Virus record (IMG/VR): IMGVR_UViG_3300028590_000055 | Location: 1-36,183 of that record | Length of the DNA: 36,183 bases | Reading direction: 5' to 3' (one strand) | DNA from: a virus | Shown here: in pieces, positions 26,975 to 36,183 of the stretch | How positions within the stretch are numbered: the stretch's first letter is position 1 | How the letters are laid out: the number at the start of each line of letters is the position of its first letter | Program-made: the position numbers and the translations under genes | Notes under the pieces: model-generated | Databases searched by the model: none | Told to the model about the DNA's origin: nothing | The model's input: only the letters and a program-made list of their open reading frames with translations

Positions 26975-27186
26975 GCGGCGGTGACCTGCACTGGCTCCGG
27001 CACGTAATCCGCCATGAAGTTGCGGACCTTATCGACCGTGCTCAGCTTGAGATCGCGACCGGCCTTCACGTCGCGCACAAAATGCGGGTCGTTCATGGCC
27101 TTGCGACCGAACGTTACCGGCGACATCTGATGCGTCTCGATGAAAGCATCGATCGCATCGGCGAGCGTCTGGGGCGTCGTATCCAT
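26971..27186 (-). CDS. First leftward early gene: small HTH-like protein, Cro-like by position
   Basis: The 71-residue product is AIDAFIETHQMSPVTFGRKA with NDPHFVRDVKAGRDL, then a TVDKVRNFM helix. It shares this pattern with the N-terminus of the 258-residue protein at 24148-24924. The predicted leftward promoter (27195-27223) would start transcription at about 27188, so this ATG (27186) would be nearly leaderless; no ribosome site is seen. Position opposite the repressor suggests a Cro-like antirepressor. That is unproven. Confidence 0.65.
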   Translation of the reverse strand: MDTTPQTLADAIDAFIETHQMSPVTFGRKAMNDPHFVRDVKAGRDLKLSTVDKVRNFMADYVPEPVQVTAA

Positions 27187-27194
27187 GACGGCGC

Positions 27195-27223
27195 AGGATA
27201 TGTAGGGCGCGCCCTACCGTCAA
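27195..27223 (-). promoter_or_regulatory. Leftward early promoter (PL-like), overlapped by an operator
   Basis: On the minus strand, TTGACG (27223-27218) is followed after exactly 17 bp by TATCCT (27200-27195). The spacer holds a full 16-bp operator. It should drive the whole leftward gene cluster when the repressor is absent. Confidence 0.8.
27202..27217. promoter_or_regulatory. Operator 1, GTAGGGCGCGCCCTAC
   Basis: This is a perfect 16-bp palindrome lying between the -35 and -10 boxes of the leftward promoter. The same sequence occurs at 28780-28795. Confidence 0.85.
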
Positions 27224-27232
27224 GCGAAATTA

Positions 27233-27248
27233 GTAGGGCAAACCCTAT
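27233..27248. promoter_or_regulatory. Operator 2, GTAGGGCAAACCCTAT
   Basis: This is an imperfect copy of the 16-bp operator, centred 31 bp (about three helical turns) from operator 1 and 20 bp before the repressor GTG. A TATCCT at 27246-27251 could be part of the repressor's own promoter, so this site may set autoregulation. Confidence 0.7.
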
Positions 27249-27267
27249 CCTATCAGAGGACGGGCGT

Positions 27268-28020
27268 GTGTGGGACACGGCCCACATGGCCGAAGCCGAA
27301 CGCTCGCAACTGCAGAACCTGCTCGCGGACCTCGTCGCGAAGTCGGACCGAACGCGCGATTACTTCGACGCGCGATTGCGCGAGCGCCTAGAAACGACCG
27401 GCAAGCCGCTATGGGATATCGAACGCGGCAAGGTGAAGCGACCAAGCCCGCGGGTTCTTCGCGCTATCGAAGAAGTGCTGGGCTTGGAGCCGGAACGCCT
27501 CGTTGATCTGGTTCATCCTCGTGAAGATCCGCCCGTTGCCAAATCGGCTCGTCCGGTCGCCGGTGCGCGCTCCGATCACCCGCCGGTCCGAACGGCCGAT
27601 GGTGGCGAAACTGCCTCAGTGATGCGCATGGACCTTTCCTATGCGATGGGGCCCGGCACCAACATCGACGACGACTATATCGAAGGCGAGCCGGTCGAGC
27701 TGGATATCGGCTTCCTGCGCCGGCTAACGCCGTCCGCCCCTTCGATGCTGCGCTTGGTCAGCGGCATCGGCGATTCGATGCAGCCTACCATCCACGATAG
27801 CGAGGATCTCGTCCTCGACCTGGGCCAACGCGTTGTTAATCTGCAGGATCGGATCTGGGCAATCTCCCTACTCGGCGCTGGCGCGGTAAAGCGCCTGCGC
27901 ACTGTCGCCAAGGATCGCGTGCTCGTGATCAGCGACAATCCGGACGTTCCTGATACAGAATATAGCACCGAGGATATAGCGATCGTCGGGCGGATCGTGG
28001 GGTCGATCAAGAGGCATTGA
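27268..28020 (+). CDS. S24-type phage repressor (CI/LexA-like)
   Basis: The GTG at 27268 is favoured because AGAGGA lies 7 bases upstream; an ATG at 27286 is possible. About 250 residues. The N-terminal half (about 15-82) is helical, of XRE type (AKSDRTRDYFDARLRERLETTGKPLWDIERGKVKRPSPRVLRAIEEVLGL). The C-terminal S24 domain holds Ser170 in GDSMQPT and Lys208 in AVKRL as the catalytic dyad. The usual Ala-Gly cleavage site is not plain (DLSYAMGPG has Ala-Met-Gly). It probably binds the four nearby operators. SOS control is uncertain. Confidence 0.88.
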   Translation: MWDTAHMAEAERSQLQNLLADLVAKSDRTRDYFDARLRERLETTGKPLWDIERGKVKRPSPRVLRAIEEVLGLEPERLVDLVHPREDPPVAKSARPVAGARSDHPPVRTADGGETASVMRMDLSYAMGPGTNIDDDYIEGEPVELDIGFLRRLTPSAPSMLRLVSGIGDSMQPTIHDSEDLVLDLGQRVVNLQDRIWAISLLGAGAVKRLRTVAKDRVLVISDNPDVPDTEYSTEDIAIVGRIVGSIKRH

Positions 28021-28779: not shown

Positions 28780-28795
28780 GTAGGGCGCGCCCTAC
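28780..28795. promoter_or_regulatory. Operator 3, GTAGGGCGCGCCCTAC
   Basis: This is identical to operator 1. It starts two bases after the HIRAN stop, 10 bp upstream of the rightward promoter -35 box. Confidence 0.85.
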
Positions 28796-28804
28796 ATTTT
28801 CTTG

Positions 28805-28833
28805 TTGACATAGTAGGGTGCGCCCTACATAAA
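28805..28833 (+). promoter_or_regulatory. Rightward early promoter (PR-like), overlapped by an operator
   Basis: TTGACA (28805-28810) and CATAAA (28828-28833) are 17 bp apart, and an operator fills the spacer. Transcription should start at about 28840, giving a 32-base leader before ATG 28872. It should drive the recombination genes and perhaps the integrase. Confidence 0.8.
28813..28828. promoter_or_regulatory. Operator 4, GTAGGGTGCGCCCTAC
   Basis: One change from the perfect palindrome. It sits between the -35 and -10 boxes of the rightward promoter, centred 33 bp from operator 3. Confidence 0.85.
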
Positions 28834-28871: not shown

Positions 28872-29531
28872 ATGGCCAAGAAGCCGACCAAGGCGAAAGC
28901 CGAGACCGCAGCGCCGGTCGTCATCACGTCGATCAAGGGGTTCGACCAGGACCTGAAATGCCGCGGCTACCAGTTCGAAGTCGGCAAGACCTACGAGCAC
29001 ACCGGCAAGGTCGAGCAGTGCGCCAGCGGCTTCCACGCCTGCCCGATCGAGCATCACCCGCTTTCGGTCTTCGAGTTCTATGCCCCCGCCGGGAATCGTT
29101 TCTTCGAGGTGCGACAAGGCGGCAAGACCAGCAACGGCGGAACCAAGCTGGCATCGGCGACGATCACGATCGATTTCGAGCTGACGATCGGCGATTTGGT
29201 CAAGCGGGCCTGGGACTATGTCTGGTCGCGAGCCACGAAGAGCGTTGATGCGCATGTCACGGTTGAAGGTCACGCGGCGAGCGCGACGGGAGACCTGGGC
29301 GCGGCGAGCGCGACGGGATACCAGGGCGCGGCGAGCGCGACGGGAGACCTGGGCGCGGCGATATCCTCATACGAAGGCCGAGTCATGGGCGCCGAGGGCA
29401 ATGCCCTGTTCGGCATCGAGCGTGACGACAACCTCGACATTCTTTCCGTAGCCGCCGGCATTGTCGGCCGAGACGGCATCAGGCCCAACGTCTGGTACAA
29501 GGTCGTCGGCGGCAAGCTGGTGGAGGCCTGA
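28872..29531 (+). CDS. DUF7666-type protein with AASATGxxG repeats
   Basis: The 219-residue product starts at ATG 28872 with GGGAG seven bases upstream. The N-terminal region (SIKGFDQDLKCRGYQFEVGKTYEHTG, CASGFHACPIEHHPLSVFEFY) matches the DUF7666 pattern, as I recall it. Three 9-residue repeats (AASATGDLG, AASATGYQG, AASATGDLG) at about 135-161 form a pentapeptide-like spiral, ahead of a VMGAEGNALFGIERDDNLDIL region. It is the first gene after the rightward promoter. Function is unknown; the repeat part resembles adhesin or DNA-mimic structures, but that is speculative. Confidence 0.75.
   Translation: MAKKPTKAKAETAAPVVITSIKGFDQDLKCRGYQFEVGKTYEHTGKVEQCASGFHACPIEHHPLSVFEFYAPAGNRFFEVRQGGKTSNGGTKLASATITIDFELTIGDLVKRAWDYVWSRATKSVDAHVTVEGHAASATGDLGAASATGYQGAASATGDLGAAISSYEGRVMGAEGNALFGIERDDNLDILSVAAGIVGRDGIRPNVWYKVVGGKLVEA
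29274..29354 (+). repeat. Three in-frame 27-bp tandem repeats
   Basis: Units 29274-29300, 29301-29327 and 29328-29354 differ only in the last codons of unit 2 (TACCAG in place of GACCTG). Units 1 and 3 are identical, which suggests recent expansion or conversion. Each codes for nine residues, so unit number can change without frameshift. Confidence 0.9.
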
Positions 29532-33275: not shown

Positions 33276-33517
33276 GCCGACCGCTCCCCTATTGGCCATC
33301 TGAAGCCGAGGCGGGCAAGCCGCTGCATCCGGTCAAAGTTCAGAGGCCTCGCGAATGCCGGAGGTGCGGGAAGGCCTTTCTGTTCTGGCACCAGCACGAG
33401 GGGCGGCACCTACTCCACCACTACGCGGATCTCGACGACGGTCGCGGCCCGCGATTCATCCTGCACCGCTGTGGCTTTACCTCCGCCGGCGTGCCGATTG
33501 CTGGAACGCCCGCATGA
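33272..33517 (+). CDS. Small protein with Cys/His-rich (possible zinc) core
   Basis: GTG 33272 (GTGA overlap) gives 81 residues: ECRRCGKAFLFWHQHEGRHLLHHYADLDDGRGPRFILHRCGF. The Cys pair and later Cys/His could bind zinc. It is a small conserved phage type, to my eye. It is coupled to the DUF5131 gene by ATGA. Confidence 0.6.
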   Translation: MSRPLPYWPSEAEAGKPLHPVKVQRPRECRRCGKAFLFWHQHEGRHLLHHYADLDDGRGPRFILHRCGFTSAGVPIAGTPA

Positions 33518-34623
33518 GCGACAACACCAAGATCGAATGGACCGACGCCACCGTGAACGCGGTCAACGGCTGCTCAGTCGTCTCGCCGGGCTGCAAGCAC
33601 TGCTACGCGATGAAGCAGGCCCACCGCTTCCCGGTGCGCCAAGGTCTGACCATGAAATCGGCCGGCGGCATGGTCTGGACCGGCGAGGTGCGCTTCAATG
33701 AGAAGGCGCTGCTCGAGCCGTTGGGCTGGACGCGGCCGCGCCGCATCTTCTGGAACGCGCATGGCGATCTGTTCCACGAGAGCGTGCCGGACGAATGGAT
33801 CGACAAGGTGTTCGCGGTCTGCGCGCTGACGCCGCAGCACCAGCACCAGATCCTCACGAAGCGGCCCGCGCGGATGCGGCAATACATGGAGTCGATCGAC
33901 AACGCCGACGGTGAGCGGCTGGAAGGTTTCCGCTCTGCCTTGGTCGAGGGGATGGCTCAAAGCATCTGGCATGCGCGGACCGGGGACGATTCCGTTGACG
34001 AGTGGCTGGCCGTGCACCTCCCGCTTCCCAACGTCTGGCTCGGCGTGTCGGTCGAGGACCAGCAGCGCGCCGACGAGCGCATCCCTGATCTGCTGGCGAC
34101 GCCGGCGGCGGTGCGGTTCCTGTCGTGCGAGCCGCTGCTCGGGCCGGTTGATCTCCAGTCGGTGTGCAACGGCCATTACTTCCAGAATCCGTTGACCGGC
34201 GACCGCTGGCACGAGCCGCCCGAAGGCTTCCGCGGCGCCAGCGATCGGGAAGGCACTCGCATTTGCTGGGTCATCGTCGGAGGCGAGAGCGGCCCCGGCG
34301 CGAGACCGATGCACCCGGACTGGGCGCGGTCACTGCGCGACCAGTGCGCCGCCGCCGGTGTGCCGTTCTTCTTCAAGCAGTGGGGGGATTGGGTCGACTA
34401 TCGCCAGCTCGGCGCCGTCGGTTGGCGCAATGTCACGCCTCAGAGGACTTCATACCAAGGGCCGCCGCGAGGAGTGCTTTACGGCGCCAAGGGCGGAAAG
34501 GAGGGGCCGTTCGACACACGCTTTGACCTCGGTGGCCCTAACGGCCCAATTGTCGTCCGCGTCGGCAAGAAGGCCGCCGGTCGCCTGCTCGACGGCGTGC
34601 AGCACGACGGGATGCCGGGATGA
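33514..34623 (+). CDS. DUF5131 family protein (phage Gp37/Gp68)
   Basis: ATG 33514 gives 369 residues. The N-terminal signature IEWTDATVNAVNGCSVVSPGCKHCYAM has Cys20, Cys27 and Cys30. Later motifs: RIFWNAHGDLFHESVPDEWIDKVF, ILTKRPARM, VWLGVSVEDQQRADERIPDLLATPAAVRFLSCEPLLGPVDL, WVIVGGESGPGARPMHPDWARSLRDQC and PFFFKQWG. These define DUF5131, of unknown function; the Cys triad suggests a metal or iron-sulphur site, as in SplB-like radical SAM relatives, but that is inferred. It is common in mobile elements. Confidence 0.9.
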   Translation: MSDNTKIEWTDATVNAVNGCSVVSPGCKHCYAMKQAHRFPVRQGLTMKSAGGMVWTGEVRFNEKALLEPLGWTRPRRIFWNAHGDLFHESVPDEWIDKVFAVCALTPQHQHQILTKRPARMRQYMESIDNADGERLEGFRSALVEGMAQSIWHARTGDDSVDEWLAVHLPLPNVWLGVSVEDQQRADERIPDLLATPAAVRFLSCEPLLGPVDLQSVCNGHYFQNPLTGDRWHEPPEGFRGASDREGTRICWVIVGGESGPGARPMHPDWARSLRDQCAAAGVPFFFKQWGDWVDYRQLGAVGWRNVTPQRTSYQGPPRGVLYGAKGGKEGPFDTRFDLGGPNGPIVVRVGKKAAGRLLDGVQHDGMPG

Positions 34624-34802
34624 CCGCCGCTGCACGCTTCAAACAGGAGGATATCACTCGCGCCGTCCGCGGCGTCGAGAAGGCGGGCATCCGCGTCGGA
34701 CGCGTCGAGATTGACCGCGACGGGCGCATCGTCATTCTCAGCGAATCGGCCGCGCCTCCCGCTGCGGCTCCCAACCCCTGGGATGATGAGCTGAAGCCAT
34801 GA
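34620..34802 (+). CDS. 60-residue protein before the integrase
   Basis: ATG 34620 overlaps the DUF5131 stop (ATGA); its stop overlaps the integrase ATG the same way. The product reads MTAAARFKQEDITRAVRGVE onward, with a VGRVEIDRDGRIVIL beta-hairpin and a Pro-rich end. It resembles small proteins placed just before phage integrases, perhaps with an excision role, but it does not look like a classic Xis. Confidence 0.65.
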   Translation: MTAAARFKQEDITRAVRGVEKAGIRVGRVEIDRDGRIVILSESAAPPAAAPNPWDDELKP

Positions 34803-36040
34803 CGAATCGCCGCCAGCTGAAGAGCAATCGCTTCCTCCCCGAGTTCGTGAGCCGGTTCAAGGACCGGCATGGCAAGGAGCGGCTGCGCTTCCGGCGCAAG
34901 GGCTACCCGGCGGGCTACTTCAAGGCACCCCTCGGGACCGAGGCGTTCCGAGAGGAATACCACGCCTTCAACAACCCCGGCGCGATCGTCGCGGCTCGAG
35001 AAGCCGCTATCGAGGCACGTATCGCGCCGGGCTCCGTCGCGGATCTGCAACGGCGCTATTACTCCGTGCCGGAGCGCCTGGGCCCGACGGCGACCACGCA
35101 GGGCAAGGTTCGCTCAGTGCTGGACCGGGGCTTCTTCGCCGGCCGCGCCGCTCACCCGGTCGCGTCGATCCGGTTCGAGCACATCGAGGCGATCGTCGCC
35201 AAGCGCCGGACCAAGTTCAAGAATGACGAGGGCCGCTGGGAAGGCGGAAACGAGGCCGCGCGAAAGCTGCGCAAGGAGCTGGTCCGCCTCTTCGATTTCG
35301 CCATGAAGTCGGAGATGGTGCAGATCAATCCGGCGGCACAGTCCGAGCGCGTCAAGATCGCGCCGGCGGACCGGTCGAAAGGCTTCCATACCTGGACCGA
35401 GCCCGAGATCGCCCAGTACCGCGCGCGGCATCCGCTCGGCACCAAGGCCAGGCTCGCGATGGAGCTGATCCTGTGGACAGACCAGCGCGGCTGCGATTCA
35501 ATCCATCTCGGGCGCCAGCATATCCGCGACGGGCAATTCCACATTACGCAGAGCAAGACCGGTAAGGCGCTGATCATCCCCATCGCGCCGCAGCTGCTTG
35601 CCGCGATCGCCGCCAGCGACGCACTGAACTCGATGTGCTTCCTGCTCAACGAATACGGCAAGCCATTCACCCGCAAGGGCTTCGGCAACAAGATGCGGGA
35701 CTGGTGCGACCAGGCCGGACTTGCCCACTGCACCGCCCATGGTCTCCGCAAGGCGACGATGCGCCGCATGGCCGAGCTCAACCTCGGCAACCAGACCATG
35801 AAGGGCCTGTCCGGCCATTCGAAGGATGATGAGGTCGCGCTCTACACCGCCGCCGCTGATCAACAGCGGATGGCGCTGCAGGCCGTCGAGCACCTCGCGG
35901 CATGGGAGAGTGCCCCCCGTGAGCAGAGCCAGGATGCGTTCGCCAAGGCGGCGATCGTCGCTTTTCGAGACCCGGTGGTGTCTAACCGTCTTCCGGAGTT
36001 AGACACCACAGAGCAACAAGAGGCTGCAAATGCACGGTAA
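34799..36040 (+). CDS. int: Tyrosine recombinase / phage integrase
   Basis: This is a 413-residue protein. Catalytic residues: Arg230 (TDQRGCDSIHL), Lys253 (SKTGKA), His314 and Arg317 (HGLRK), His340 (SGHSKDD), Tyr349 (VALYTAA). The N-terminal part carries an arm/core-binding region (SVADLQRRYYSVPERLGP). It integrates and excises the phage. It is the last rightward gene, which places attP just downstream or inside its end. A 12-bp inverted repeat lies in the last codons (35975-36009). Confidence 0.92.
   Translation: MTNRRQLKSNRFLPEFVSRFKDRHGKERLRFRRKGYPAGYFKAPLGTEAFREEYHAFNNPGAIVAAREAAIEARIAPGSVADLQRRYYSVPERLGPTATTQGKVRSVLDRGFFAGRAAHPVASIRFEHIEAIVAKRRTKFKNDEGRWEGGNEAARKLRKELVRLFDFAMKSEMVQINPAAQSERVKIAPADRSKGFHTWTEPEIAQYRARHPLGTKARLAMELILWTDQRGCDSIHLGRQHIRDGQFHITQSKTGKALIIPIAPQLLAAIAASDALNSMCFLLNEYGKPFTRKGFGNKMRDWCDQAGLAHCTAHGLRKATMRRMAELNLGNQTMKGLSGHSKDDEVALYTAAADQQRMALQAVEHLAAWESAPREQSQDAFAKAAIVAFRDPVVSNRLPELDTTEQQEAANAR
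35975..36009. repeat. 12-bp perfect inverted repeat within the integrase 3' end
   Basis: GTGGTGTCTAAC (35975-35986) and GTTAGACACCAC (35998-36009) flank an 11-base loop. No T-run follows, so it is not a plain terminator. The place, about 30 bases before the integrase stop, is suggestive of an attachment-site or regulatory element. Confidence 0.8.
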
Positions 36041-36183
36041 TATCGAAGTGGTGGCGCTCCGGCTCGGGCCTCCACTCCCCAAGCTGCGGCTTTCGGGAGC
36101 AAAACAACACCCTCCCCCGCCAGCTTCGCCCGCATCGCGAAGGCCCGTGCGCAGCCGCGTCGATCCGGCTGTCATGCGCTGAA
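36041..36183. other. Right-end segment without a recognised gene
   Basis: No gene is recognised here. A 50-codon frame, MHGNIEVVALRLGPP onward (36030-36182), has AAGAGG six bases upstream and overlaps the integrase end, but its Pro/Arg-rich product is unconvincing. An attachment site may lie here; no tRNA end or repeat is seen. Confidence 0.4.

Follow-up and report, generated by a model that had tools for sequence, protein, structure and literature searches.

Arm-type integrase sites, their arrangement in pairs, and motifs specific to a lineage are already in print, as the available portions of two papers describe (PMC3203893, PMC11963761). In the mycobacteriophages CrimD, Pixie, L5, and Giles, short repeat pairs flank the attachment core and the motifs vary among related integrases, and in both respects they resemble the locus analyzed here; orientation also varies between their arm-type sites, as it does here, with one CrimD pair inverted relative to the other pair and the L5 and Giles pairs direct (PMC3203893, available portion). 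What distinguishes the present locus from CrimD, L5, and Giles, as they appear in that portion, is a pair whose two members point toward each other and lie in the 3′ end of the integrase gene (int). The attP of ICEMlSym(R7A) has five IntS arm-type sites, all said to be needed for efficient integration; it is similar in having an alphaproteobacterial tyrosine integrase with arm-type motifs and different in its motif (TGKTGGTATC), in belonging to an ICE, and in its five sites (PMC11963761, available portion).

The lambda attP, to whose arm-type (P, P′) sites the N-terminal domain of Int binds, is like the site described here in its related integrase, in the arm sites that flank the core, and in a spacer fit for bending by IHF. 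The lambda P′ sites are direct, whereas here the P′ pair is inverted, and the motif is a different one. Sinorhizobium phage phi2LM21 and Paracoccus phage vB_PthS_Pthi1 also have related integrases, with other motifs. Both records place the core at the end of the genome, within tRNA-Phe(GAA) for phi2LM21 and within tRNA-Ser(GGA) for Pthi1, where it is preceded by TTGTATC..GATACAA. The record feature rows shown for these two phages list the core and no arm sites, and the term "inverted repeat" is absent from the main text, as available, of the phi2LM21 paper (PMC5537653). A literature search on integrase arm sites in inverted orientation gave no match, which does not show that the layout is unreported.

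The inverted repeat at the int 3′ end and its relatives

The window, by which we mean the whole stretch of DNA analyzed, is a virus record of 36,183 bases, and the features of its right end are as follows.

33355-34623: DUF5131 / phrog_2045 gene, directly upstream of int
34799-36040, + strand: int, tyrosine integrase of 413 aa (PF00589; PHROG integrases)
35975-36009, no strand: inverted repeat of two perfect 12-bp arms separated by 11 nt, within the final codons of int
35979-35986, + strand: P′2, proposed distal arm-type half-site, TGTCTAAC; the octamer is also found at the int ends of relatives and inside attL
35998-36005, − strand: P′1, proposed proximal arm-type half-site (GTTAGACA on the + strand), on the same basis as P′2; the start-to-start distance of 19 bp is the commonest spacing
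36006-36048, no strand: spacer from P′1 to the predicted core, set by the spacing rule of relatives; place of a possible IHF bend
36049-36066, no strand: predicted attachment core (TGGTGG...), placed from spacing alone
36067-36183, no strand: right flank, possibly host DNA beyond attR

Residues R230, K253, H314, R317, and Y349 of the integrase are invariant across 34 integrase sequences, and the active site has the R-K-H-R-(H/W)-Y pattern. The best structural match to the model of the window integrase (pLDDT 88.9) is lambda Int (1z1b, Foldseek E 2.2e-14). Superposition with lambda Int gave Z 19.3 with an rmsd of 16.0 over 320 residues (model residues 9-364), and this large rmsd means that the domains are set differently in the model and in lambda Int. 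Residues 1-60 are predicted to form strands at 17-21, 27-31, and 39-41 and a helix at 48-58, and arm-binding domains are described as three strands and a helix in the available part of PMC8138268. When the N-terminal domain was folded alone, the match was weak, with the Tn916 domain at Z 2.5, tied with unrelated folds.

The repeat at the int 3′ end, GTGGTGTCTAAC-N11-GTTAGACACCAC, is present with exactly the arms and gap that had been predicted, and it is in frame with the last int codons, encoding VVSNRLPELDTT. The exact repeat has a single match in the window, and none of 100 shuffles reached this pattern even with up to three mismatches. The original prediction held the repeat too long and exact to be chance, and from length alone this does not stand: a dinucleotide-shuffled window contains, on average, 0.125 perfect inverted repeats whose arms are 12 or longer and whose gaps are 3-20 (40 shuffles, largest 2). 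It does stand through conservation, since the repeat recurs in relatives and a chance origin is thereby excluded.

Viral contigs were scanned for GTGTCTAACN{5,20}GTTAGACAC, which was present in 11, five of them with the pattern at an integrase 3′ end and an 11-nt gap in each case (L056, L062, L060, L061, and L066, where L056 and L062 are the same over the compared stretch). The remaining six (L057, L058, L059, L063, L064, and L065; gaps of 5, 11, or 13), where an integrase was not seen at the pattern, were set aside. The peptide VSN....LDT is encoded across the repeat in four of the five int-linked contigs; in the fifth, L066, the int stop codon falls inside the left arm, so that the frame is lost there but the repeat persists. 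Thus, the DNA rather than the protein is conserved. The repeat also lies at or after the int stop codon in L014, L020, L081, and L082. The comparison also covered 54 further integrase loci. In 12 of these, a related repeat, exact and with arms no shorter than 8, lies within the int end or directly after it, mostly as TGTCCCAC..GTGGGACA; in another 12 the sequence stops at the int stop codon, so that a downstream repeat could not show. What the window repeat and its relatives share is (G)TGTCTAAC, the innermost 8-9 bp of either arm; the similarity does not extend to the outermost bases of the 12-bp arms. As read from these sequences, the conserved unit is the octamer TGTCTAAC with its inverted partner, usually 19 bp apart.

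Host genomes were searched for the pattern TGTCTAACN{10,12}GTTAGACA. Of 385 alphaproteobacterial genomes, 2 have it, each time at int, and the reversed pattern, used as a control, is found in 1. Of 398 genomes belonging to the order of G285, perhaps Sphingomonadales, 10 have it and the control again gives 1. With one genome common to both sets, this makes 11 loci in total, a count that overstates independence, as L149/L152 and L153/L154 are near copies. An integrase frame was detected beside eight of the 11 palindromes with a filter for open frames of >250 codons, and under that filter none was found beside L149, L150, and L156. The motif recurs both in host genomes and at other integrase ends, the two places in which the original prediction had proposed to look.

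Recurrence of the motif on both sides of the core in relatives

In many relatives with host DNA, int runs toward the 3′ end of a tRNA gene. A facing (convergent) tRNA is present in 10 of the 11 host loci, with its 3′ end 45 bp past the repeat in nine and 44 bp past it in one, and these tRNAs are six Ser-GGA, two Arg-CCT, one Glu-TTC, and one Met-CAT; L148 (in G540), alone among the 11, has no tRNA called at the locus. The spacing is the same while the targets differ, and thus the repeat is placed relative to the crossover.

The original prediction proposed locating the far end of the prophage and comparing attL with attR, and this was done in relatives. The other end of nine TGTCTAAC-type elements was sought within up to 60 kb, leaving out G706, whose contig ends. 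For seven of the nine (G285, G783, G789, G780, G637, G485, and G540), attL was found as a repeat of 13-17 bp, 8.9-35 kb away, and for G759 and G750 it was not found within up to 60 kb. The 13-17 bp common to attL and attR in these seven begin 43-48 bp past the inverted repeat, which lies outside the core. Inside attL, the motif recurs at +50 and +102 from the core in all seven elements, with 0-2 mismatches to TGTCTAACC, and two such motifs 52 bp apart occur at only 7 of the 382,083 positions in the searched regions. No far arm sites were seen in the ~5 kb of prophage side present for G102.

In a first element set, attL was found for five of eight elements, G285 among them, and not for the other three, for two of which only 14-20 kb were covered. 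Four elements have motifs that differ from TGTCTAAC, yet each repeats its own motif inside attL: G249 has TGTCCCAC at +58 and TGTCCCAT at +112, G287 has GTCAAACC at +51 and GGCAAACC at +103, G175 has GTGTCTAA at +74 and TTGTCTAA at +124, and G048 has TTGTCTAA at +142 and, by eye, GTCTAAAA at about +92. In the viral contig L061, TGTCTAAC is present four times in 12.8 kb: two of the copies make up the repeat, and the other two, at a distance of 52 bp from each other, are on the far side. L060 has the whole site on one contig. In relatives, then, the motif lies on both sides of the core and outside the crossover, and the window record holds the P′ side only.

A search of viral contigs with the whole-site pattern (P′2, P′1, and P2 at the predicted distance) returned eight contigs, including L060. 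An integrase directly precedes the site in seven of the eight, the L193 locus having only 39 bases ahead, and a fourth site follows P2 in all eight. The distance to this fourth site is 51-53 bp in five contigs and 43 bp in the other three, L191, L196, and L197, whose sequences do not differ over 250 bp. With the integrase in seven and the fourth site in eight, the predicted whole-site layout is found as expected.

Elements of ~9-11 kb (L061, G285, G287, G637, and G783) have the integrase type and arm layout of full-size prophages, and these may be phage satellites. Separately, the 38-kb circular record L127 (NZ_CP081845.1), named plasmid p1 of Caenibius sp. WL, encodes a related integrase, after which two copies of TTTGGCTAACC lie ~50 bp apart; this record may be a circular phage genome.

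For the window itself, the core is predicted near 36049 from the spacing in relatives: TGG at 36049 or 36052 is 43 or 46 bp after the octamer, and the relatives have 44-45. No tRNA was found in the 36,183-base record, including at the predicted core, and attL is absent from it. The right flank is possibly host DNA beyond attR, since no arm sites follow as they would in a free attP. An exact search with the predicted core gave no match in viral contigs, and there was none in the family of G102 (only 2 genomes). Searching 398 genomes of the order of G285 gave short matches in 70, with E up to 0.01 and scattered over the query, which we take as chance; one of these that covers the predicted core, L162, has no tRNA at the locus. 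The right flank thus found no convincing match in these searches. The window may end in an attR within a non-tRNA target, by analogy to G540, which has the same layout and no tRNA called. A 50-codon open frame at 36030-36182 overlaps the int stop and crosses the predicted core, and it has no PHROG match.

The window contains other repeats as well. The palindrome GTAGGGCGCGCCCTAC is present at 27202-27217, 28780-28795, and 28813-28828, as two perfect copies and one with a mismatch, and three copies were found in 0 of 100 shuffles; one copy lies in the 5′ part of an S24-type repressor frame (27082-28020) and two lie beyond it, the last two flanking TTGTTGACA. These palindromes are probably repressor operators. 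At 29273-29361, a 27-bp unit, CGCGGCGAGCGCGACGGGAGACCTGGG, is present in three copies head-to-tail.

Readings of the repeat

The original prediction offered an attP arm as one of its readings, and this is the one that is strongly supported. We are highly confident, from the comparison of sequences, that the repeat is an inverted P′ pair of integrase arm-type sites in attP, beside the core and not the core itself, and we consider a terminator, an inserted element, or an int off-switch to be much less likely. We infer that it is the integrase that binds the octamers.

Of the alternatives, the one that survives best, although improbable, is that the repeat is bound not by the integrase but by some other protein component of the attachment complex or by a protein that regulates int, for instance an excisionase. 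Dimeric regulators favor inverted repeats, and directionality factors also bind within attachment sites (PMC11963761, PMC2951348, available portions). However, the sites are found on both arms, with the far side direct and the int side inverted or direct, and such orientations are possible for arm-type sites in mycobacteriophages, according to the available portion of PMC3203893.

Slightly less probable again is a role in RNA, in which the repeat would act on int mRNA, ending or tuning it as a terminator or a processing hairpin, or would end transcription from the facing tRNA gene. The window RNA does fold to a 12-bp stem (−25.6 kcal/mol, z −2.99), the L060 repeat RNA folds with z −1.41, and int and the tRNA face each other in relatives. 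Against this, no terminator-like site (G+C-rich stem plus T-run) was found around the repeat in a scan of 35700-36183, in line with the T-run that had been noted as lacking, and L085, with a direct pair, folds no better than shuffles (z 0.91). A role in RNA also leaves the separate single octamers inside attL and the fixed distances unexplained. A hairpin in RNA is possible as a side effect.

The repeat could instead be the attP core itself, with its arms as core-type half-sites around the crossover and the same sequence in the host. The core sites of tyrosine recombinases often take the form of an imperfect inverted repeat whose halves lie a short spacer apart, and an attP core was among the original suggestions. 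We dropped this reading, which we now regard as very unlikely, once attL and attR had been located in relatives: the sequence common to attL, attR, and the host site is not the repeat, the core lies 44-45 bp beyond it, at the tRNA 3′ end, and the arm spacing shifts by a helical turn among relatives, unlike a crossover. The original prediction had named two findings that would count against it, namely an attachment core mapping elsewhere and a repeat missing from close relatives; the first is what we observe, as the core maps beyond the repeat, and the second is not, as relatives do have the repeat.

It had also been suggested that the repeat shuts off int once the phage has integrated, a reading that we reject on logic. 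In the intact attP (L060) as well as in attR, the repeat is on the same side of the core as int, so that integration leaves its link to int unaltered, and int is thus unlikely to be switched off upon integration.

Conservation as a peptide (VSN....LDT) only, chance, or an inserted palindrome has next to no probability despite the four int-linked contigs that encode the peptide and the frequency of such repeats in shuffled windows, being ruled out by L066 and by the loci whose repeat coincides with or follows the int stop codon; the small palindromic element once suggested also does not fit the fixed place and spacing, the related repeats, e.g., TGTCCCAC..GTGGGACA, at the same place in other lineages, or the direct pair that replaces the repeat in some relatives.

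Pair geometry and the proposed attachment site

To place the pair in the wider family, we used 40 int-tRNA loci in which the tRNA faces a nearby int end, with 2000 segments as the control. Loci with a same-strand tRNA about 310 bp beyond int (L014 and L039) or with the tRNA farther away (L033, L042, L047, L050, and L070) were left out, as were the repeats L071, L146, and L147. The 40 loci are related and some are near-identical, so that the following counts are not independent. An exact 7-bp inverted repeat with its proximal arm 46-58 bp from the tRNA is present in 28 of 40 loci versus 52 of 2000 controls; with the same placement, 8-bp arms give 21 of 40 versus 13 of 2000, and 9-bp arms give 16 of 40 versus 10 of 2000. 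A one-mismatch version was too lax to be informative (37 of 40 loci versus 459 of 800 controls). In some relatives, a direct pair stands where others have the inverted repeat. By eye, the 12 loci without the exact 7-bp repeat comprise seven with direct copies in the same place (L077, L079, L080, L084, L085, L087, and L088) and five with imperfect or shifted repeats (L048, L049, L051, L052, and L054). Also by eye, CCGCACC/GGTGCGG forms a direct pair in L079 and L080, an inverted pair in L131, and far-side copies in L132.

When pairs were counted by octamer register in the collected loci, 46 distinct inverted pairs were 17-21 bp (24 pairs) or 27-29 bp (22 pairs) apart, and no inverted octamer pair was seen at other spacings in the scanned range of 11-34 bp. 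The two spacing classes differ by about one helical turn.

The 46 bp nearest the tRNA plus the first four bases of the tRNA have a mean of 38% G+C over the 40 loci. IHF-like sites are enriched in these segments: 17 of the 40 have one with at most one mismatch, versus a mean of 3.9 and no more than 11 in 200 shuffles, which preserved base content alone. In the window's own spacer, no IHF-like site has fewer than two mismatches.

We propose that the P′ arm consists of two octamer copies, inverted and 19 bp apart in the last int codons, which would be bound by the N-terminal domain of the integrase. The attP of this lineage would have the order int, the facing sites P′2 and P′1, a spacer about 44-47 bp long, the core, P2 (+50), and P1 (+102), where the core is about 13-17 bp and usually a tRNA 3′ end, and the spacer is perhaps bent by IHF. 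Integrases gripping arm and core sites together would bring attP to the host site and recombine the cores, and excision would use the same sites together with a directionality factor. A facing P′ pair inside the coding end of int may be a trait of the lineage.

A broader proposal can be made more tentatively, and from the spacing classes we consider it possible and not probable: facing P′ sites would carry the integrase complex throughout the lineage, with the bound domains on the same DNA face and the motif swapped, presumably together with the N-terminal domain. If this is true, the P′-arm geometry would be unlike that of lambda, a code from motif to domain would be readable from genomes, and the geometry would serve full-size phages and ~10-kb elements alike.

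The site is of a known kind and in itself is ordinary phage biology, here with its layout mapped closely across many related phages. In this lineage, the arm repeat serves as a ruler that locates the attachment core within a few bases and marks the prophage end of a contig, and with the motifs collected beside their integrases, recognition of arm sites by the N-terminal domain can be tested both through comparison and through domain swaps in laboratory systems.
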